Below are positions 25,161-36,624 of a stretch of 64,000 bases of DNA, piece by piece. The notes beneath the pieces were generated by a model. It did not search any database. It was given only the letters and a program-made list of their open reading frames with translations, and was not told where the DNA came from. Where the stretch lies: assembly GCA_029945375.1 (NCBI GenBank), contig CM057060.1, positions 2,108,001 to 2,172,000 on the forward strand, written 5' to 3'. Position numbers and translations under genes: made by a program. The stretch comes from Agaricus subrufescens. Taxonomy: Eukaryota > Basidiomycota > Agaricomycetes > Agaricales > Agaricaceae. How positions within the stretch are numbered: position 1 is the stretch's first letter; each line of letters begins with the position of its first letter.

Positions 25161-27521
25161 ATGGCATGAGCAACCAGGAGGTCCAAGGTCAGGTGTCTGT
25201 GTCCTTGTTGTGGGTTGGTTGATCCTTGTGTAAGGCAACGGCACCAAGAATGCCGGGTGAAGAGTGCTTCACTCAGAGCCAGGATTGTCTGCCACTACCA
25301 ACGCACTGGCTCCATGGTAATGAATACAAGGACCACCAAAAGTAAAGGTTCCCTCACATCTGCTGCCCCTCCCATTCCAGCTACTTCTCTGCCATCCTCC
25401 CCCCCCCTCAGATTCCCTTTGTGGCTGCAGATGATGTGCCGCATATAGCTGAACTACCTACTTCCTTGGCTAGCAAACATCCCTTCCACGAGAACCAAAC
25501 AGCCACTGATACTGAGCAAGCAATTCGAGTGAGAGAGAAAATGGGGATGGCGATGGACCAAACCTGGAGACCAGCTTCTCAACCCGTATGAAGGTCGGAT
25601 GAAGAAGATAATCAGGAAGATAACCAGGAAGGACTTGCACTTGCAAATGACACACTCTATGACTTGTTATTTGCGGATGAAGACTATGAAATGAATGATG
25701 ATGGTGAAAGCAACGACAAAACAGATGATGGGGCAAGCAATGAACTTCTCACCAATGTGACAGGAATCACTCTCTGGGATAGAGTTCTGGAGCGCTGTAA
25801 ACGCCAGGTGGCAGCCTTAGGTTAGTCTTTCTACTCGCATTCCTACTCTCATGTATCTCATTGATTGGCAGATACTTCTCAAAGCCTTGGCGAGGCCGAT
25901 ATTGACATTCTCCTCAAGTATAGTCTTAAGATCAAAGATCGTTTGACTGACAGGATGTTTGTACGGATGGAGCGCGCCTTTCGACAATTGCATCATGAGT
26001 TGCTCAAGAATACAAAGAAGTGCGTGTATATGTTGTCTGGCTTGCAGTCTATCTGCTACAGCTGCATCTGCTTCATGGGGCCGTATGAGCATTATACCCA
26101 ATGTCCCAATCCCGATTGCAATGAACCTCAGTTCAACGCAAAAGGCCAGCCATGCAAGTATTTCACGTACCTCCCTATCATTCCTCATCTACTTGCCATG
26201 CTATCTAGCCATGAGCATGCTCAAAACTTGTGCTATTGAGCAGATTTCAAACATAAACCAGGTGTGATAAGAGATGTCTTTGACAGCTCGTATTACCGAT
26301 CGCTCCTTAAGACCATTGTTCCTACAGGCAATGAGGACAACCCTTTCTTTTATTTTTCTGACAAGTGTGACATTGCGCTTGGCCTTTCAACTGACAGGTT
26401 CGCCCCATTCAAGCAGCGTAGCCAGATGTGCTGGCCAATCATTCTGTTTGTCTACAATCTTGCACCGCAGGTATGGTTCCAAAAGAAGCATTGTTTACGG
26501 GTTGGCATAATTCCGGGTCCCAAGAAACCATGGGACTCAGACTCCTATCTTTGGCCACTTGTTCAAGAATTAATCCAGCTCGAAGCTGGTGTCAAGGCTT
26601 GGGATTCAGTCACCCAGGCATATTTTCTCCTGCATGCTTATCTCATCCTCATTTTTGGTGATATCCCTGCCATGGCGCTCATTATGAATATGAAAGGATC
26701 AAATGCAATTAGTCCGTGTTGTGTTTGCAAAATGCAAGGTGTATGTAATCATCTTGCAAGCAAAAAGACTTACTACATCCCTTTGCAACGGGACAATATC
26801 CCTAATGCCGATCCTATCCATTATGATCCGAGAGATCTCCTGCTACAGACGCATCGTGAATTAATGGAACAAGCCATCACTGTGCAAATGTCACCTACCA
26901 ATACTGCATTTGAGAATCTCGCAAAGCAATACAGTATCAAGGGCGTACCAGTCCTTTCAAATGTATCCACAATCTCATTTCCTGAATCCTTCCCATTTAA
27001 TTTCATGCATCTGGTTTGGGAAAACCTAATCCCCAACTTAATATCATTCTGGATTGGCAAGTTTAAAGACCTAGAACATATTGGCAAGGGCTATTTAATC
27101 GGTCCTTGGGTTTGGGAAGAAATCGGAAAAGCTACAGAGGATTGCAGATCAATGATGCCCTCCTCTTTCAGCGCCAGAGTTCCCAACATCGCCAAGAAGC
27201 AGTTGCAAATGTCTGCTGAAATGTATTCAAATTGGACGCTCTTCATTGCTCCAATTGTTCTCCGTGGAAGATTCCCGAATGTGTTATACTATAAGCACTT
27301 CATGCAGCTTGTGAGGCTACTCAAGCTTTGCCTTTCCCTTGAAATTGATGAAAAGATGCTACATGAGATTGAGGAGGGCTTTGTCCACTGGGTATGGAAT
27401 TATGAATGGTAAGAGTATTTATAATCTACTCTTTCAATCCGATCTTGATGATGTGCAGGTACTATTACCGCAACCAACCAGTGCGACTCTCTGCTTGCCT
27501 GTTAACCCTTCACATGTTACT
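25161..27521 (+). pseudogene. CACTA (Tnp2-type) transposase, 5' part
   Basis: Likely start ATG at 25161, with TGA already at codon 3 (25167). A cysteine-rich finger follows (CLCPCCGLVDPC, H..C), then an acidic region in a shifted frame, a 51-bp intron (25821-25871, GTTAGT...TTGGCAG), and the catalytic Tnp2 domain: YTQCPNPDCNEPQF, DIALGLSTDRFAPFKQRSQM, GIIPGPKKPWDSDSYLWPL, INNP-type CCVCKMQGVCNH region. A TGA at 26237 interrupts the domain where the surrounding sequence implies TCGA to TTGA. A second intron, 27409-27458 (GTAAGA...TGTGCAG), restores YEWYYYRNQPVRLSACLLTL. Gypsy-J then splits the exon. Confidence 0.8.
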
Positions 27522-28168
27522 TGTTATATCCCGTTTCCAGAACTTTCCGATCATTCCCGACATTTCCCTTTCTATCTAGAATGTTCCATTTCCATTTCCG
27601 GTATGTTCCAAGGTATCCCGCTGTCAAGTTTCCTTTCGATAGGATCTGCTCGGGACTGTTGTCTTTCGGGTTCCTTTATTTGGTAAGTCCATTTCCCGGA
27701 ACCGGTAGTGGTTGGCTGGTTATGCCGTAGTTCCCTTTCCGGAACTACGGTTGCACTCCCGCGGTCGCTCTACGACCAACACAACATGGGCCGTAACTTT
27801 CCAATGGCCAACGCGACTGTATCCGGATCGGTACTCATTCCTATTGCAATGCGATTGCTATATCTCTATTCCGACTCCTATTTCTATTTTCCGGAACTAT
27901 TCCTTTTCCGTAATTTACTCCTGTATACCTTCGTATATAAGTTCCGCATTCCTGTATCTATTCCTCAGTCTGAAATTGACTTAGATTCTATTCCCTCTCA
28001 ATTCCTATCTTCCCGCTAAGCATTCCGCAACTCGCGTTCTATTCTGCTATCGCTTTCTGGGCTTCCGGAACCCGCTGGAGGGCACAGTGCGCCTTCGCGT
28101 CGCTGAGGCCAACGCCTATCCCCAAATCGGAACCGCCTAGTTCTGACTCTGCGGTCGTAGTCTTAACA
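27522..28168 (+). repeat. Gypsy-J 5' LTR (647 bp)
   Basis: Begins TGTTATATCCCG and ends GTCTTAACA. A TATATAAG box near 27933 suggests transcription starts about 200 bp before the LTR end. Many positions that are T or A here are CpG in the 3' LTR, so this copy has lost more CpG sites. Confidence 0.92.
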
Positions 28169-28213
28169 GTATTTCAGACTTCCGCTCCAGCTGGTTCCAC
28201 ACTTCGCTTTTGT

Positions 28214-29683
28214 ATGAGTCGCACTCGCAGTGTTACTTTCGCATCTGGTACTCCTCCTGGCGACATTCCACTTCCCCCTGCTCGTCAACCTAAACCTCGC
28301 AGTTCCGCGAAAACTTCGGATTCTCATACCCCTGTTTCCAAAACCCCTGACATGTCTCACCGAGTTTCCGGTTTGGGTTCTCGCACCCCTCAAGACTGGG
28401 AAGGTTCTCAATCGGTACCCCCTGGTTGCTCTCAGGAGGGTACTCCTGTTTCCGACGTTCCCGGTACTCACCGGAACCCCGGAACTTACGATGGATCGGG
28501 TGGAAGGGAAAAGGGTAAGGGAAGAGATGGTGGTGGTGATGGTGACGACGGAGGTGGAGATGGAGGTGGAGATCCGGGAGATGAGGATGGAGATGGAGAA
28601 GAGGATGGAGATGACGATGAAGACGGTCAACACGTTCCAAATCGCGTTTTAGCCAACCTCCTATCAACTATCTTGGATACACTCACTCGGAATTCTTCGC
28701 AACCTCCCACCAAAACTCCTAAAGTCGCAATCAAGGAACCAACTTCATTCAACGGCAAGGAACCTCACAAGCTCAACGAATTCATTTTTCAGTGCCGCCT
28801 CTACTTCGAGGCTAATCCGAATCAATTTCCGTCGCAACACACAAAGGTTTCCTTCGCTCTTTCTTATCTTTCCGGTTCCGCTCAAACTTGGTTTCAAACA
28901 ACTCTCGAGGAGAATCCAATATGGGAATTAGTTCCCTGGTATAACGACTGGAACTTGTTTGTCGATGAACTCGTCTCCAATTTTGGTTCCTTGGATCCAG
29001 TAAACGAGGCTGCGGAAGAGATTGAGCATCTTACCATGTCCGCTAACGACCACATCAACAAGTATAACGTCTCATTTGCTCGTCTTGCATCGCGTCTTCA
29101 CTGGCCGGATTCCGTTTTGGTCCATCGCTATTATCGTGGTCTTCCCGATCGCATCCAGGACGTCCTTTCCTCACTTCCAACCGACAAACCCTCCACTCTT
29201 CGGGAATTATGGGATCTGGCTATGCGCATCGACAACCGCCACTGGGAACGCCATCGCGAACGGAACCGTGCCAACAAGCAATCCACTTCGAAGGACTCCA
29301 ACCCGCAACAAAAGCAGAAGAACAAACCCGCAAATTCCGGCAACAACAATTCGCAATCGCAATCATCGTCCTCCGGTAACCAATCCAACAACAATGCTAA
29401 ACCCGGAAAACCCGCAAACGCAAATTCGCAATCCGGTTCCTCTTCCTCGTCCTCGAATCCTCTCGCAAATGTCCTCGGTCGCAACGGCAAACTCACTCCT
29501 CAGGAACGCCAGCGTCGGAAGGACAAGAACTTATGTATGTTCTGCGGAGGAGGCGGCCATACCGCTGAGAATTGCCCGAAGAAGAATACCGGCAAATCCG
29601 ACAACTCTAACAAGCCAAAGGGCCGATCAGCTGTAGCTGAAGGTACTTCCGCGAGTTCCGCTCCTGCGAGCTCGGGAAACTAA
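28214..29683 (+). CDS. Gypsy-J Gag
   Basis: 489 residues. The N-terminal third is Pro/Ser-rich, followed by a Gly/Asp/Glu tract (about 98-138). The capsid-like retrotrans_gag domain spans about 150-350 (PTSFNGKEPHKLNEFIFQCR, FALSYLSGSAQTWF, RLHWPDSVLVHRYYRGLPD). An Asn/Gln/Ser-rich linker leads to one CCHC knuckle CMFCGGGGHTAENC (441-454). It forms the virus-like particle and binds RNA. The start ATG lies 46 bp after the LTR. Gag ends at TAA 29681-29683, directly after a slippery heptamer that allows pol expression. Confidence 0.92.
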   Translation: MSRTRSVTFASGTPPGDIPLPPARQPKPRSSAKTSDSHTPVSKTPDMSHRVSGLGSRTPQDWEGSQSVPPGCSQEGTPVSDVPGTHRNPGTYDGSGGREKGKGRDGGGDGDDGGGDGGGDPGDEDGDGEEDGDDDEDGQHVPNRVLANLLSTILDTLTRNSSQPPTKTPKVAIKEPTSFNGKEPHKLNEFIFQCRLYFEANPNQFPSQHTKVSFALSYLSGSAQTWFQTTLEENPIWELVPWYNDWNLFVDELVSNFGSLDPVNEAAEEIEHLTMSANDHINKYNVSFARLASRLHWPDSVLVHRYYRGLPDRIQDVLSSLPTDKPSTLRELWDLAMRIDNRHWERHRERNRANKQSTSKDSNPQQKQKNKPANSGNNNSQSQSSSSGNQSNNNAKPGKPANANSQSGSSSSSSNPLANVLGRNGKLTPQERQRRKDKNLCMFCGGGGHTAENCPKKNTGKSDNSNKPKGRSAVAEGTSASSAPASSGN

Positions 29684-29722
29684 TCCGCGGTCCCCTTGAC
29701 TCTGCACAGGCGGGGGATCGCG
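29674..29722 (+). promoter_or_regulatory. Gag-pol -1 ribosomal frameshift signal
   Basis: Slippery heptamer G GGA AAC (29674-29680) sits in gag frame directly before the gag TAA. After a 5-nt spacer comes a 10-bp stem, CGCGGTCCCC (29686-29695) with GGGGATCGCG (29713-29722), one G-U pair, loop 17 nt. Slipping back one base moves ribosomes into the pol frame (GGG AAA CTA ATC), which is open from 29611 onward. Confidence 0.82.
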
Positions 29723-32700
29723 TTGACACCCTCTGTGCTTCAGAGAGAGTTCGTCTCAACGCTTCCGCTCTTTCCGATCCGAATTCCCTTCGTGTTTTTC
29801 TTTCTCCTACGGACATTTCTTCAATTTCCGACATTCCTGCGCTGGTGGACAGTGGTTCGACTCATTGTTTTATTTCGAATTCCTTTGTTCGTAAACATGG
29901 TATCCCGACAGTTCCGATTCCTCCTGTTAAGCTTCATCTCTTCGATGGGACTTCTAGCTCTTTTGTTTCCGAGGTTGCGAAATTTCCTGTATCTTTTCCT
30001 ACTGGTGAATCTATGACACTTTCCCTCTATGTCACTTCGCTGGATCCGCAGACTCTAGTGGTTCTTGGGCACGACTGGCTGTCCCGCTACAATCCGTTGA
30101 TTGACTGGGTTACTGGCCGCATCACTTTCCGTTCCACTCCTGTCGAGATTCCGCCTACTCTTCGCGCGCTGCCTTCCGATGACACTGTGCCACGAACGTC
30201 GGTATCAGATTCCATCACGGAAGCAACTTCCGATTCACCCGCCAGAATAGACATTCGTCTAGTCAATGCCGCTGCCTTTGCGCAAGCATCCCGACTTCCT
30301 GGCTCTCATCGCTTCGCCCTCAACCTTCGCTCAGTTATCGCTGCAGCATCCTCTGTCGAGGAATCTCCTGTCGACCTTTCCGCTATTCCGGCGGAATACC
30401 ATGATTTTGCGGATGTGTTCAGCAAGTCCCATGCGGATACGCTACCGACGCATCGACACTACGATCTCAAGATCGACTTAGAGGACGGTACCGCACCTCC
30501 TATAGGTCCGATCTATTCCTTGTCGCAAACGGAACTTCAAGCTCTTCGCGAATTCATTGACGAAAACCTCTCTATCGGTTTCATCCGACCCGCAACCTCT
30601 CCCCATGGCGCTCCTGTTCTTTTTGTGAAGAAGAAGGATGGTTCCCTCCGTCTCTGCGTCGATTTCCGTGGTCTCAATCGGATTACTCGGAAAGATCGCT
30701 ACCCACTTCCCCTCATTTCGGATCTCCTTGACTCTCCTCGCAAAGCTCGCATCTATACGAAGATTGATCTTCGGCACGCATATCACCTCGTCCGTATTGC
30801 GGAAGGCGACGAGTGGAAAACGGCCTTCCGGACTCGTTACGGGTCCTTTGAATGGCTCGTCATGCCTTTCGGTCTTAGCAATGCTCCCGCCGCATTCCAA
30901 CGGTTCATGAACGACATTTTCCAGGACTTGCTAGACGTATGCGTTACTATCTACCTCGATGACATCCTCATCTATTCCGACGATCCGACTCAACACCGGA
31001 GTCATGTCAGAGAGGTGCTGAAGAGACTTCGTGAACATGGTCTCTATGCGCGAGCCGACAAATGCGAATTCAATTCCGACACGGTGGAATATCTCGGGTA
31101 TATCCTTTCGACTGACGGTCTCACTATGTCCGACGACAAGGTCAAGACTATCCAGGACTGGCCGGAACCCCGGAAAGTAAAGGACATCCAATCCTTCTTA
31201 GGGTTCGCAAACTTTTATCGTCGCTTCATCTATGGCTATTCCGACATCGTGGTCCCCTTAACTCGCCTTACTCGCAAAGGGATCCCTTGGAACTTTGGTT
31301 CCGATGCCTGGAATGCCTTCGAGACCCTCAAGAAGGCCTTCACTTCCGCTCCCGTCCTCACTCACTGGATTCCGGACTCGCAAATCATCATCAAGACCGA
31401 CGCTTCTGACTACGCTTTAGCCGCTATCCTTTCCATCGTATCCCCTGACGGTGACATTCATCCTATCGCATTCCATTCCCGCACTTTCTCGTCTCCGGAA
31501 CTCAACTACGACACTCATGATAAAGAGCTTCTCGCTATCTTTGAGGCGTTCTGCATCTGGTGTCATTACCTAGAGGGGGCTTCCCTTCCGATCGATGTTG
31601 TTACTGACCACAAGAACTTGGAATATTTTGCAACTACCAAGCTCCTTACCCGTCGGCAGGCATGATGGTCGGAATACCTCTCGCAGTTTAACTTGGTCAT
31701 CCGTTTCCGACCCGGTAAACTAGGAACGAAGCCGGATGCTTTGACGAGACGCTGGGACGTCTACCTAAAAGGGGAGGATAAGGGCTACGCTTCGGTCAAT
31801 CCGCACAACTTCCATCCAGTATTCACTCAAGAACAACTCGCTTCATCTCTCCACGCCTCATCCCTCGCGACCCCTGTGTTCCGTGCCGCTACTATCATAG
31901 ATCTTTCGCAACTCCATTCCGACATCCTTTCCACACTTCCCGAAGATCCCATTGCTGCACAGCACCTCGCGTCGCCCCAAGGGAGATGGTCTCTCACTTC
32001 CGATGGCTTCCTTAGGCTCGATGACCAGATCTATGTTCCCGACGCTAACACTTTACGACTTTGCATCACGCAATATCACCACGACCATATCCTGGCTGGC
32101 CACTTCGGTCAGAATAAGACTCTGGAATTAATCCGAAGGAGTTATACGTGGCCCGGAATCCGCGACTTCGTCAAGCACTTCTGCAAGAGTTGCGTTACCT
32201 GCATGCGATCCAAACCTCAACGTCATCGACCCTACGGGACTCTCAAGCAGCTTCCGATCCCGGAACGTCCCTGGCATTCTATCTCTATGGACTTTATCGA
32301 GAAACTTCCGCAATCCTCTGGATTCGATAGCATTCTAGTTATCGTGGACCGCCTCACGAAACAAGCCATATTCATTCCGACATACGATACCATTAATTCC
32401 GCTGAACTCGCTCGACTCTTCGTTATTCACGTATTCTCCAAGCACGGTGTTCCGTCCCATGTTACTTCCGATCGCGGTTCCGAGTTCGTATCTCATTTCT
32501 TCCGCTCTCTTGGCCAAGCACTCGACATGAAACTCCATTTCACTTCCGGATATCATCCCGAAGGCGACGGTCAAACGGAACGGACGAATCAAACTCTGGA
32601 ACAGTATCTCCGCATCTACTGTAACTATCAGCAAGACAACTGGTCGGAACTCCTTCCGCTTGCGGAATTCGCATTCAATAACGCTCCCAGCGCTACTACC

Positions 32701-33363
32701 GGTATCTCACCTTTCTTCGCGAATAAAGGCTATCACCCATCCCTCGCTATCCATCCCGAACGCGACCTTGCATCCTCACGAGCTCGGGAATTTGCTATTG
32801 ATCTCGACGAACTTCATGCTACTCTCAAATCCGAAATCGCATCCGCTCAACAATGCTACCAGGTATCCGCTGACGCTCATCAGTTACCAGCACCCGACTT
32901 CGGAATTGGTCAAAGAGTATTCGTCAAGGCAAAGTATTTCCGCACTACCCGACCGTCGAAGAAACTTTCCAAAAAGTATCTTGGTCCTTACGAAATTATT
33001 GCTCAGGCCGGAACCCATTCCTTCACTATCCAACTTCCAGATTCTATGCGTGCCATCCATCCAGTATTCCATGTCTCCATGCTCGAACCTGCAACTACCA
33101 ATCAAATTCCGGATCGCGTCCAACCTCCTCCAGATCCCGTTGACGTCGAAGGCGAACAGGAATACGAAATATCTCGCATTGTCGACTCCAAGATTGATCG
33201 TCGGAGGGCGTGCAAGTTATTGTATAAAGTATTGTGGATGGGCTATGAGGATACCGACGAGGAATTCTCTTGGCTTCCTGCAACGGAACTCAGTCACGCT
33301 ATGGAATTGGTTTCCGATTTTCACGCTGCTTACCCCGCTAAGCCTGGTCCTCTTCCGCTTTAG
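29681..33363 (+). pseudogene. Gypsy-J Pol: protease, RT, RNase H, integrase, chromodomain; one nonsense codon
   Basis: Frame -1 to gag. Order: aspartic protease ALVDSGSTHCFIS (about 29836); RT with KIDLRHAYHLVRI, MPFGLSNAPAAFQRFMN and catalytic YLDD (30952-30963); RNase H with KTDASDYALAAIL, ELNYDTHDKELLAI and VTDHKNLEYF; integrase zinc HH..CC (about 32080-32210), and DDE residues in SMDFIEK, SDRGSEF and GQTERTNQ. The C-terminus is a chromodomain (EYEISRIVDSKIDRR, VLWMGYEDTDEEFSWLP). TGA at 31663-31665 interrupts the RNase H tail (RRQA*WSEYLSQF), most simply CGA to TGA. The rest is open, so damage is minimal. Confidence 0.92.
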
Positions 33364-33565
33364 TTCTTTTCTGCTGATGTCTTTCCGATTCCCTTATTTC
33401 TTTTCCGTTCCTCAAGTCATTGTCTAATTCATTAAATCATTCCGACTTCACTTCAAACAATCCATCGCATTGTCCGAAACACCAAGAAACAACATCCGCT
33501 ACAACGTATCCTAAAAGTTTCAAAGTTCAAGAAACAAATATACATTTGGGAGGCGCCGGAACAGA
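33364..33565. other. Spacer between Gypsy-J pol and antisense ORF
   Basis: About 200 bp between two convergent reading frames, AT/pyrimidine-rich, without coding signal. It would hold the 3' ends of both transcripts. Confidence 0.5.
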
Positions 33566-34801
33566 TCACATCCGCCCTCCTGATCCACCGGGACTTCCTC
33601 CATACCTCGACCCCGACTGCCTAGCCCGATCCCCGTAATCCATCCGCTGATCCGATCTCTCCCCTCCATACCGACCCTGACGACCTTCACCCTCCCGACA
33701 TGCGTCCGTGTTCAATCGCATCGCGTCCACCATATTCCTCATCTCACGCGTCTGCTCCTCTGCTGCTCTCCGCACCCTTTCCTGTGCATCCGTATTCCGA
33801 TCCAGGGCCTCCAGATTCTCCCGACGAGCCTCCAAGCTCTGCCTTTTCAGCTCATTTGCGTCCTCCATCGCTTTCCGAGCCCTTGCGCTTTCATCCGCAC
33901 TCCGCGCAGTCTCGATCCGCAACCTCTTCAGTTCCGATGCGACCCCATCCACGGAATGCTTTTGAACTTCAACGTTCGGTTGCGGGCTTGATAGCGAATG
34001 GTGGTGTGCGGGAGAGCGGCGGGGAACTTCCTTCTCGGGACTAGAGGCAGGAGACGACGACAATTCCGGGAGGAACAGCTGGGTCTTCTGAGTTGGTCTC
34101 GGGGCTACGGGTGGCTTCTTATTAAAGGGAACAGCGGGGGAGGCGGGATTAGCGGGGGTGGTAACGGAACTACTAGCGGGAGTGCCACCGGTCAGTAACT
34201 TGCCGGTGATCGGGTGGTATACATGCCTGTCGGGTACTTGGACAGGTGCTGCGGTCTCCTTTTCCTTTCTTTTCTTAGCGGCGGGACCTAGCGACGAGTG
34301 TGCGCACCCTTTCCGCTGTTTTGAGCACTCGACACATGTGGTACCGGCAGTGTGGGTCCAACAGACCAGACTTCGGTGAGCGCACGATGCGCATTTTGTC
34401 GCATAGACGTGAGCCCCGGCCTGCGGGATCGTTCGTGAGTCGATCTCCATGATCGGAATCAATTTGCGCACTGGGGGTACCTTGATGCTTGCCTTCTCCG
34501 CCTCATCTGCCTTTCTGCCTCCTCGCTTCGACGTTCGGGTCGTCTTCACGATTGCGGTCATTTCCTTTGCTTTCGCTTTCGCCTTCGGAACCTCGACTAC
34601 TTCCTCGGTACCTTTCCCTCCCTCGTCGGAACCAGATTTTTCAACTTCGACGTCCTCCCCTTCGGCATTGACATCCATTGCGTCTCCCTCAGTGGCCTTT
34701 TCCTTTGTGGCTTTGGCATCCTGCTTTGTAGCCCATGCGGTGAATTCCGCAGCGGACATCTTTGAAAAATCGGGAGCGATGGGAGTGGTGGGCTGGGACA
34801 T
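33566..34801 (-). CDS. Antisense ORF in Gypsy-J: Zn2Cys6-type, coiled-coil protein
   Basis: The uninterrupted 411-codon ORF lies on the strand opposite gag-pol, between pol and the 3' LTR. Residues 1-110 are acidic then Lys-rich. Cysteines 137, 140, 147, 156, 159 and 166 give C-x2-C-x6-C-x8-C-x2-C-x6-C, the spacing of the fungal Gal4-type binuclear zinc cluster. A basic patch AAKKRKEK (174-181) could be a nuclear signal. Residues 190-285 are Pro/Ser-rich; about 285-362 is a charged helix likely to form a coiled coil; 371-411 is Gly/Arg-rich. Palindromic CTTATAAG (34843-34850) lies about 42 bp upstream of the ATG. It could be a regulator encoded by the element or a captured host gene; function is unproven. 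Confidence 0.82.
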   Translation of the reverse strand: MSQPTTPIAPDFSKMSAAEFTAWATKQDAKATKEKATEGDAMDVNAEGEDVEVEKSGSDEGGKGTEEVVEVPKAKAKAKEMTAIVKTTRTSKRGGRKADEAEKASIKVPPVRKLIPIMEIDSRTIPQAGAHVYATKCASCAHRSLVCWTHTAGTTCVECSKQRKGCAHSSLGPAAKKRKEKETAAPVQVPDRHVYHPITGKLLTGGTPASSSVTTPANPASPAVPFNKKPPVAPRPTQKTQLFLPELSSSPASSPEKEVPRRSPAHHHSLSSPQPNVEVQKHSVDGVASELKRLRIETARSADESARARKAMEDANELKRQSLEARRENLEALDRNTDAQERVRRAAEEQTREMRNMVDAMRLNTDACREGEGRQGRYGGERSDQRMDYGDRARQSGSRYGGSPGGSGGRM

Positions 34802-35049
34802 GGCGAGAAGGATGGGGGAACCCGAATCGTTCCAAGTCCCTTCTTATAAGCGTCCCAACACGTTCCAATTCCAGATCTACTGCTCGTCATTGCAACGCGC
34901 TTTTAATTTCCATTGCCTCATTCCATGCCACGCTTCCCTTAAGGTTGGGATCCTCAGCTTCTATTTTCGCTCCCGACGAAGTTCTATTTTTATCCGGGCG
35001 CATTCCCTTATTGATGCGGCCTCGAGGCTCGGCCTTAAGGGGAGGATAC
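34802..35049. other. Gypsy-J 3' noncoding region with polypurine tract
   Basis: Contains the TATA-like element for the antisense ORF and, immediately before the 3' LTR, the purine run aaggggaggatac (35037-35049) expected to prime plus-strand DNA synthesis. Confidence 0.7.
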
Positions 35050-35696
35050 TGTTATATCCCGTTTCCAGAACTTTCCGATCATTCCCGACGTTTCCCTTTC
35101 TATCTAGAACGTTCCATTTCCATTTCCGGTATGTTCCAAGGTATCCCGCTGTCAAGTTTCCTTTCGATAGGATCCGCTCGGGACCGTTGTCTTTTGGGTT
35201 CCTTTATTTGGTAAGTCCGTTTCCCGGAACCGGTAGTGGTTGGCCGGTTATGCCGTAGTTCCCTTTCCGGAACTACGGTTGCGCTCCTGCGGTCGCTCTA
35301 CGACCATCGCAACGCGGGCCGTAACTTTCCAATGGCCAACGCGACTGTATCCGGATCGGTACTCATTCCTATTGCGATGCGATTGCTATATCTCTATTCC
35401 GACTCCTATTTCTATTTTCCGGAACTATTCCTTTTCCGTAATTTACTCCTGTATACCTTCATATATAAGTTCCGCATTCCTGTATCTATTCCTCAGTCTG
35501 AAATCGACTTAGATTCTATTCCCTCTCAATTCCTATCTTCCCGCTAAGCGTTCCGCAACTCGCGTTCTATTCTGCTATCGCTTTCTAGGCATCCGGAACC
35601 CGCTGGAGGGCACAGTGCGCCTTCGCATCGCTGAGGCCAGCGCCTATCCCCAAATCGGAACCGCCTAGTTCCGACTCTGCGGTCGTAGTCTTAACA
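35050..35696 (+). repeat. Gypsy-J 3' LTR (647 bp)
   Basis: Same ends and same length as the 5' LTR. It retains more CpG dinucleotides at the variable positions. Followed by target duplication TTACT. Confidence 0.92.
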
Positions 35697-36624
35697 TTAC
35701 TTCATATTGTGTGGGGAATCCGTGTTGCTGGCCCAGTTTGGAATTACTGGGCTTTCCCAATGGAACGTGAATGTAATAATCTACTTTGTGCCATCAAGAG
35801 TCAACAACACCCCTATGAGTCCATCAACACTTTCATTATTGCAACCGCCCACCTAGATCAAATCTGATTGTTATACAACCTACAAGATGAGTTAAATTTA
35901 GATCCTTGGATGAATGTGATACACCATCATGCCTATGAATCGTAGAAGTGATGTTACATTCGTTTGATGCTACTGGTTATTGACTTATGATCAAGATTCA
36001 ACCTACAAACTTTGGGGCCCTTGACAAGAGGTAGCTCTCTCAAAACCTTTACGCCACAAAGTTCATGCAAGTCTGGCAACAAGATTTGATGCCTCAATAT
36101 CTCTCATACGAGCTGTCATTAAACTTGATGGCCCCCTTCTCCAGTATGGCAAGGTTGATTGCCTTGGGGACAGGGACACTCTGACTGCATGTGACCTTGT
36201 TGGACAGAGTGAGGACACTCGAGATGCCTCATATGTGAAGGTAAGCATTGTCCTTGTTCTTCTCTAACTGTTAATATCTAATCCAAATATTTAGTACACT
36301 CTCTACATAGATCACTTTGCAAAGCAAAGGAGGCACAAGCCAGAGTTCATAGCCTGTATGTCCTTTGGACAATTAAAGCGTCTTCTTGTTCTGGACTTAC
36401 CGGTCATCCTGCAACTATGACTCGAGTCACCATCTACAATCATCTTTGCCATTATCCAGAGCATGAAGAAAACAGAAGAAGAAGGTATTATTTATTGCCA
36501 AGAAACTCCTACCATTGAGGCAGTTGATCTGAATACTATTGAACGTGTCATTGGGAGGGCTCGCGATGGCAATCGCTGGGGTGTTATGGATCAAAGCGAT
36601 GTGATAACTGAGATTGAGTGTTAG
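35697..36624 (+). pseudogene. CACTA (Tnp2-type) transposase, 3' part
   Basis: Continues the exon broken by Gypsy-J (LLHIVWGIRVAGPVWNYWAF, PMERECNNLLCAIKSQQHPY), with TGA at about 35866 and further damage after 35930. After a 54-bp intron (36241-36294, GTAAGC...TTTAG) the C-terminal Tnp2 region reads YTLYIDHFAKQRRHKPEF, VDLNTIERVIGRARDGNRWG, VMDQSDVITEIEC, ending at TAG 36622-36624. The element's right terminus was not located. Confidence 0.75.

Follow-up and report, generated by a model that had tools for sequence, protein, structure and literature searches.

Can an LTR retrotransposon carry, on the strand opposite to gag and pol, a gene for a protein that recognizes the element's own DNA? 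The question is raised by an open reading frame (ORF) in a gypsy element of Agaricus subrufescens, found in a stretch of 64,000 nucleotides that we call the window. The preliminary description of this DNA took the frame for an antisense gene encoding a Gal4-type zinc-cluster protein, either a regulator of the element's own or one captured from the host. Gypsy elements have been known to carry antisense genes for decades, and we know of no such gene to which a function has been assigned. We compared the window copy with 20 regions of the same genome around matches to the antisense protein (L009-L028), plus region L029.

The element and its copies

The element at 27522-35696 is a fungal Ty3/gypsy chromovirus. 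It has long terminal repeats (LTRs), a 5-bp target duplication, gag, the protease, reverse transcriptase (RT), RNase H and integrase (IN) domains in that order, and a chromodomain (Table 1); the CCHC knuckle of gag gave a Pfam match under the cut-off. In the window copy pol is broken in two, the RT/RNase H frame ending at 31665 and the IN frame starting at 31693, and another copy has an open frame of 1240 amino acids across the break. Target duplications of 5 bp are visible in six of eight other copies too. Upstream of the element, a tnp2-type transposase ORF (PF02992; 26264-27412, plus strand) stops about 110 bp short of it.

The same gag-pol backbone and LTR layout is present, in parts, at nearly all 20 regions, with remnants only in L023 and L028 among others. 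In L009 and L010 the antisense frame and the frame through RT are both free of stops. L016, L017 and L018 (contigs 7, 2 and 14) are near-identical, and L012 and L013 have common flanks; these are duplicated genome segments, not separate insertions.

Table 1. Features of the window copy, in window coordinates.
Feature	Positions	Strand	Basis or remark
Target-site duplication TTACT, left	27517..27521	.	Sequence read directly
5' LTR	27522..28168	+	647 bp; direct repeat
TTCCG/CGGAA sites, whole element	27522..35696	.	116 sites over 8175 bp; 29.1 expected from dinucleotides
gag (Ty3_capsid / Retrotrans_gag)	28214..29683	+	ORF and Pfam
pol part 1: protease, RT, RNase H	29845..31665	+	Stop ends frame in window copy
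pol part 2: integrase (H2C2, rve, SH3_Tf2-1) and chromodomain	31693..33363	+	ORF and Pfam
Spacer, pol stop to antisense stop	33364..33565	.	Hypervariable; putative 3' UTR of antisense gene
Antisense gene, 411 codons, ATG start	33566..34801	-	ORF, dN/dS, indel and stop controls
Long charged helix (predicted), residues 284-375	33677..33952	-	pLDDT blocks 95-98 over residues 291-360
Basic stretch KKRKEKE	34256..34276	-	Likely nuclear localization signal
Six-cysteine cluster CX2CX6CX8CX2CX6C	34304..34393	-	17 aligned alleles
N-terminal helix (predicted), residues 17-38	34688..34753	-	pLDDT blocks 78-79
Conserved region upstream of antisense ATG	34802..35049	.	Purine-rich stretch at end, before 3' LTR
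CTTATAAG, putative TATA box of antisense gene	34843..34850	-	42 bp upstream of ATG
3' LTR	35050..35696	+	647 bp; 14 TTCCG/CGGAA sites, 2.8 expected from dinucleotide shuffle
Target-site duplication TTACT, right	35697..35701	.	

The antisense frame is a conserved gene

The antisense frame is a conserved protein-coding gene under purifying selection. It lies, as first described, intact and opposite to gag-pol, between the integrase and chromodomain end of pol (33363) and the start of the 3' LTR (35050), with the pol frame split by a stop. The whole protein, searched against the six-frame translation of the genome, gave 36 matches, fragments counted, and the gene was found at the same place in other copies. 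The preliminary description had proposed dN/dS across copies as a check, and the ratio for the whole ORF was well below 1 (0.11-0.37) in all 45 pairs among 10 copies. Over 18 copies, the true frame had a median dN/dS of 0.15, compared with 1.05-1.99 in other frames; one wrong frame was low too (0.25), namely the sense frame whose third positions coincide with those of the antisense gene.

Another line of evidence is the pattern of indels and stops. Between copies, 218 of 248 indels in the ORF are divisible by three; in the neighboring spacer this holds for 13 of 256, and upstream for 0 of 47. Stops were fewer than under a random dealing-out of the same substitutions in each of the nine copies tested (P <=0.007). 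It is therefore extremely unlikely that the frame is open by chance, that an antisense RNA alone is functional, or that the patterns reported here are a mutational artefact. The first of these has in its favor how common antisense ORFs generally are in GC-rich DNA, and nothing more; the dN/dS, indel and stop tests speak against the first two, which we reject, and the artefact is taken up below with the divergence and the motif.

The sequence CTTATAAG reported about 42 bp upstream of the antisense ATG was found there, at 34843-34850. This palindrome occurs in 18 of the 20 regions L009-L028, and TTATAAG is intact at the right place in all 15 aligned copies. From this conserved putative TATA box we infer that the gene is served by a promoter of its own. 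The purine-rich stretch before the 3' LTR is probably the polypurine tract.

The encoded protein

The cysteine pattern C-x2-C-x6-C-x8-C-x2-C-x6-C, the basic stretch and the long helix are all as originally described. In 17 aligned alleles, whose rows were picked by the cysteine pattern, the six cysteines and a tryptophan after the cluster are invariant, and SKQRK-type residues are conserved along with them. The long charged helix, 92 residues predicted with high confidence, is probably a coiled coil.

The preliminary interpretation held in part: the conserved coding gene and the conserved TATA box stood, and membership in the Gal4-type Zn2Cys6 family and capture from the host found no support. 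The spacing of that family is C-x2-C-x6-C-x5-12-C-x2-C-x6-8-C, and the protein has it, with L016-L018 falling slightly out of the range, their last loop being x5. Membership is not supported by the remaining evidence: there was no significant Pfam match and no relative in the PDB, and AlphaFold gave no confidence at the cysteines. The whole protein had no match to Pfam Zn_clus (PF00172) at E up to 1. When four alleles were searched, one gave a Zn_clus match with E 0.13 and 12.8 bits against a cut-off of 21, covering half of the cluster. In this match the first half of the profile lies on the second half of the cluster, and therefore the cluster may be permuted or a separate invention. Sequence searches of the PDB gave chance-level matches only, Foldseek found nothing, and pLDDT at the cysteine region was 36-40 in one model and averaged 44.5 in another. 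Neither of the VANC families DUF1985 and DUF287 was found by Pfam in the protein at E up to 1.

Nor did the evidence support a captured host regulator. The six-frame search of the genome returned element copies and short fragments only (five of the fragments unfetched), and the 17 host Zn_clus matches listed over the cut-off all lie away from element copies. A protein search for a cellular homologue gave none at E 0.001 or E 1, which is weak as evidence.

Old alleles of the antisense gene, reshuffled among young elements

Copies differ far more in the antisense gene than elsewhere in the element; the preliminary description missed this hypervariable and mosaic character. Between the window copy and L009, identity is 97-98% in gag, RT and IN and about 95% upstream of the ATG and in the LTR, but 82% in the antisense ORF and 74.5% in the spacer. 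Synonymous divergence (dS) for the same pair is 0.065 in gag, 0.044 in RT and 0.072 in IN, against 1.86 in the N segment of the antisense gene, 1.10 in the cysteine segment, 0.80 in the middle and 0.16 in the helix; dN/dS by antisense segment is 0.06-0.19. Compared with L009, L010, L021 and L024 (the integrase row of L021 excluded), the gag-pol of the window copy is never more than 7.5% different in any 200-bp window. The zone of divergence is bounded by the pol stop on one side and the antisense ATG on the other.

Inside this zone, segments are shuffled among copies. At a 13% threshold, the spacer falls into 8 sequence types among 18 copies, and the helix (cc), middle, cysteine (Zn) and N segments into 8, 9, 10 and 13 types among 19 rows; L017, L018 and the first L025 copy were left out of these counts as duplicates, and L028 has no usable flank. 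At the same threshold, there are 2 types in each of the two upstream segments, 3 at the integrase end and 6 in the LTR, and the surplus types in LTR and IN3 are decayed or truncated single copies. The antisense-region tree does not allow the five young backbones to form one clade (p = 7e-7). In the backbone tree, a single clade is rejected for type B alleles (p = 0.021) and is not rejected for type C-like alleles (p = 0.055); the groups in these tests were named only after the clusters had been seen.

The two LTRs of the window copy show 22 differences over 647 bp (3.4%), and LTR pairs within eight other single copies differ by 2.2-12.9%. Because of this divergence within single copies, much of the difference among young backbones may be post-insertion decay. 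Such decay does not account for the divergence of the antisense alleles. Neither does local hypermutation, which we considered as a source and rejected: L009 and L010 are equally alike inside and outside the antisense region, at 97.6-100% in every 125-bp bin. Among 91 RT matches in the genome we saw no likely donor element: all that exceed 50% identity share 83-100% with the window copy, and the others reach 50% at most. We conclude that old antisense alleles circulate by recombination among young elements, which suggests selection for diversity; selection would be keeping the alleles apart.

One way in which selection could do so is copy-number control by heteroimmunity, in which the antisense protein would restrain elements with a matching allele, so that rare alleles spread and old ones persist and are reshuffled. 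Deep divergence that is confined to the antisense gene and reassorted (8, 9, 10 and 13 types against 2 upstream) fits this explanation, as does the rejection of the young-backbone clade, and a precedent exists in the divergent gag genes of Ty1 and Ty1', with recombination and horizontal transfer (PMC7055915, in the part available). We nevertheless consider it unlikely: the change in the protein is small, given the dN/dS by segment above, with diversifying change in no segment, and the TTCCG excess described in the next section is left unexplained.

Escape from RNA silencing is still less likely as an explanation. The overlap of sense and antisense transcripts would yield double-stranded RNA, and overlaps that diverge in nucleotide sequence would evade the small RNAs of other copies with the protein kept constant. 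It is true that synonymous sites and the spacer diverge and that protein and promoter do not, that the zone stops at the ATG, about where the start would be expected from the putative TATA box at 34843, and that 6 of 12 allele pairs have no 21-mer in common (1-21 in the rest). Yet long exact matches are significantly depleted in none of the 12 pairs and exceed expectation in three, and the evenly spaced mismatches that small-RNA escape should leave are absent in all 12 pairs when compared with random codon order. Silencing escape also fails to explain the motif and the low diversity of gag-pol, which would be likewise transcribed.

A different antisense ORF, of 186 open codons, lies behind pol in two other gypsy elements (L032:804-1361 and L033:793-1350, both minus strand). 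The block that contains it is 90% identical between the two, compared with 73% at the pol ends, and the open frame has dN 0.036 and dS 0.163. Cassettes with antisense genes may thus move between families.

A five-base motif along the element

The element is rich in TTCCG and its complement CGGAA over its whole length (Table 1). In the 55,000 bp of the window examined outside it there are 59 such sites, where 70.8 are expected. We tested gag-pol by shuffling synonymous codons, which keeps both the protein and the codon usage. TTCCG/CGGAA was the most over-represented 5-mer, with 68 occurrences on both strands against 22-24 expected (z 11-12), and the two highest 5-mers of the plus strand in gag and pol were TTCCG (45 vs 16.4, z 9.4) and CGGAA (23 vs 7.0, z 6.7). 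Every base of the five counts: TTCCA, TTCCC and TTCCT have z 0.9-1.6, and CTCCG and GTCCG are depleted. The one-step neighbors of TTCCG are overall not depleted, which argues against a mutational artefact. The same shuffle also raises TGCGA (29 vs 14.8) and TTGCG (28 vs 15.1), at lower z.

The excess extends beyond gag-pol. Each LTR has 14 sites, with 2.4-2.8 expected, and the antisense alleles are enriched in 14 of 14 sequences (z 1.4-5.4), segments being shared among the sequences. In five young copies, site density is higher where coding constraint is absent: 20.1 per kb in the LTR and 22.2 in the spacer, 12.3 in IN3 and 10.6 in the antisense ORF. We looked for a preferred spacing between sites and found that only the overlapping palindrome TTCCGGAA stood out (five cases); the distances between sites are a little more even than random ones (CV 0.83 vs 0.98, P 0.029). 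An antisense promoter free of the motif, suggested by the largest gap between sites in the window copy (34745-35073), was rejected, with 10 of 11 other copies having 1-4 sites there.

Slower decay of TTCCG was also rejected as the source of the excess. The motif is lost in copies at a rate of 0.22 (100/452), compared with 0.20-0.23 at other CpG contexts. Since TTCCG is lost as fast as other CpGs, the excess built up in the active lineage. Retention in old alleles is a further check. Between old antisense alleles whose synonymous sites are saturated, TTCCG was kept in 6 of 8, 8 of 11 and 7 of 11 cases, and other CpG 5-mers in the same comparisons in 75 of 253, 85 of 367 and 55 of 257 (30%, 23% and 21%), giving p values of 0.012, 0.0009 and 0.004 for comparisons that overlap and are not independent. 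In two of three comparisons with the old copy L016, retention showed no such excess (2/16 and 2/18), the third giving 6/18; CGGAA ranked 14th of 158 5-mer types by retention.

Four other gypsy elements of the genome, 40-43% identical in RT, do not have this excess: we found no comparable 5-mer in them (top z 3.1-4.7), and TTCCG occurs 3, 16, 3 and 18 times, with 5.2, 12.4, 5.2 and 17.2 expected. Simple counts give 1, 6, 1, 17 and 8 sites per 4001 bp in five partial regions of other elements; the region with 17 is L033, which includes a piece of the TTCCG-rich chromovirus family. The gypsy element L039 has no antisense ORF with the six-cysteine pattern and, again as a raw count, 8 sites in 9201 bp. 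The enrichment is element-wide, family-specific and strand-symmetric, and neither codon usage nor slow decay explains it.

Zinc-cluster factors usually have CGG as their half-site, and the motif includes it, as about one in ten 5-mers would by chance. Accumulation of a motif containing CGG is what a sequence-specific self-regulator would predict, and the prediction is supported here. Alternatively, TTCCG could be there for a host factor or for some step of the cDNA cycle, with the antisense protein engaged in something unrelated such as nuclear import, assembly of virus-like particles or transcription. No computed result connects the protein with the motif, and one of the 17 host zinc-cluster matches listed could bind CGGAA. 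The motif is found throughout coding sequence and beyond the LTR, however, which is unusual for promoter sites, and its presence on both strands speaks against a role at the RNA level. We judge this alternative improbable.

A proposed role for the antisense protein

The reading that we favor, tentatively and as plausible though somewhat short of probable, is that the antisense protein is a nuclear DNA-binding helper that recognizes TTCCG across its own element, in the manner of the VANC proteins discussed below. The antisense accessory gene would be transcribed and would give a nuclear protein with an N-terminal helix, the six-cysteine cluster, a basic signal and the long helix, the last of which probably makes it a dimer. 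The cluster would bind zinc and recognize TTCCG/CGGAA. The element would have gained TTCCG by its choice among synonymous codons in gag and pol, and more densely in the LTR and spacer. By coating its own proviruses in trans, the protein would keep them expressed or keep host methylation off, an outcome that would amount to VANC-like anti-silencing or to self-activation. The link between protein and motif rests on their co-occurrence in one family and on the CGG match.

Decay of the copies points to what the protein might work against. In gag-pol of L009-L016, L019 and L021, CpG to TpG changes are about 12 times as frequent as C to T changes at other cytosines (about 0.20-0.23 vs 0.0175). This suggests that the host methylates cytosines of the element family, and host methylation would be the likely opponent of the antisense protein. 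A further proposal, which we regard as doubtful, is that this is a recoded retrotransposon in which an array of five-base self-sites and the antisense protein would constitute an anti-silencing system independent of the plant VANCs, with old alleles kept by frequency-dependent selection.

Comparison with known systems

The protein resembles the Zn2Cys6 family (PF00172) in cysteine spacing, in a dimerization-type helix and in the CGG-containing motif of its element. Members of that family have basic residues in the first half of the cluster and a proline before the fourth cysteine; the window protein has its basic residues in the second half, lacks the proline and has no significant profile match. 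HBZ of HTLV-1 is likewise an antisense regulator of a retroelement, and is a spliced bZIP product of a promoter in the 3' LTR.

The closest likeness in gene arrangement is to the antisense ORFs called aORF-3R, which include gene23 of maize Grande, rice RIRE2, Retand of Silene and brtn of Botrytis Boty (PMC7264820; brtn also in PMC8365987; both in part). The window gene agrees with them in its place, in its opposite strand, in its presence in most family copies and in the conservation of its coding sequence there, and brtn shows that fungal gypsy elements can carry antisense genes (PMC7264820, PMC8365987). In the portion of PMC7264820 available, gene23 is driven by a promoter of its own and its product is nuclear, and there is no mention of a motif of the TTCCG kind. 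Unlike the aORF-3R genes as described in that portion, the window gene is far more diverged than gag-pol, is mosaic, encodes a six-cysteine protein and lies in a motif-bearing element. Antisense genes are thus already known; mosaic hypervariability and a selected motif are apparently new. The titles and abstract openings of the open-license papers that our literature searches found yielded neither a motif selected along an LTR retrotransposon nor a mosaic hypervariable antisense gene.

In Ty1, divergent alleles of a self-encoded factor, p22/p18, have similarly been recombined between otherwise similar retrotransposons; p22 is a truncated Gag and not an antisense product, and there are few gag types, against about ten here (PMC7055915, from its available part).

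The VANC proteins are anti-silencing factors of the Arabidopsis VANDAL transposons, and VANC21 needs the dense array of its motif in VANDAL21 (PMC5735166, PMC10398659, as far as their available text goes). According to the same text, the parallels are a protein that is encoded by a transposable element and varies more than the transposition machinery does, a likely opponent in host CpG methylation, and a short motif enriched in its own family and rare in other transposable elements, of which four were shuffled here. The differences, on the same basis, are that VANDALs are DNA transposons and that the VANC21 motif has nine bases and lies mainly in noncoding tandem repeats, whereas the window element is an LTR retrotransposon with a dispersed five-base motif that extends into coding DNA, putative binding and no sequence relation to VANC. 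The synonymous-shuffle test for family-specific motifs is applicable to any transposon family, and the pool of antisense alleles would allow one to ask what kind of selection maintains diversity in the accessory genes of selfish elements. If the protein does bind TTCCG, this element would be an example of how a retrotransposon can mark its own DNA, coding parts included, for a regulator that it encodes, and a fungal counterpart to VANC anti-silencing.
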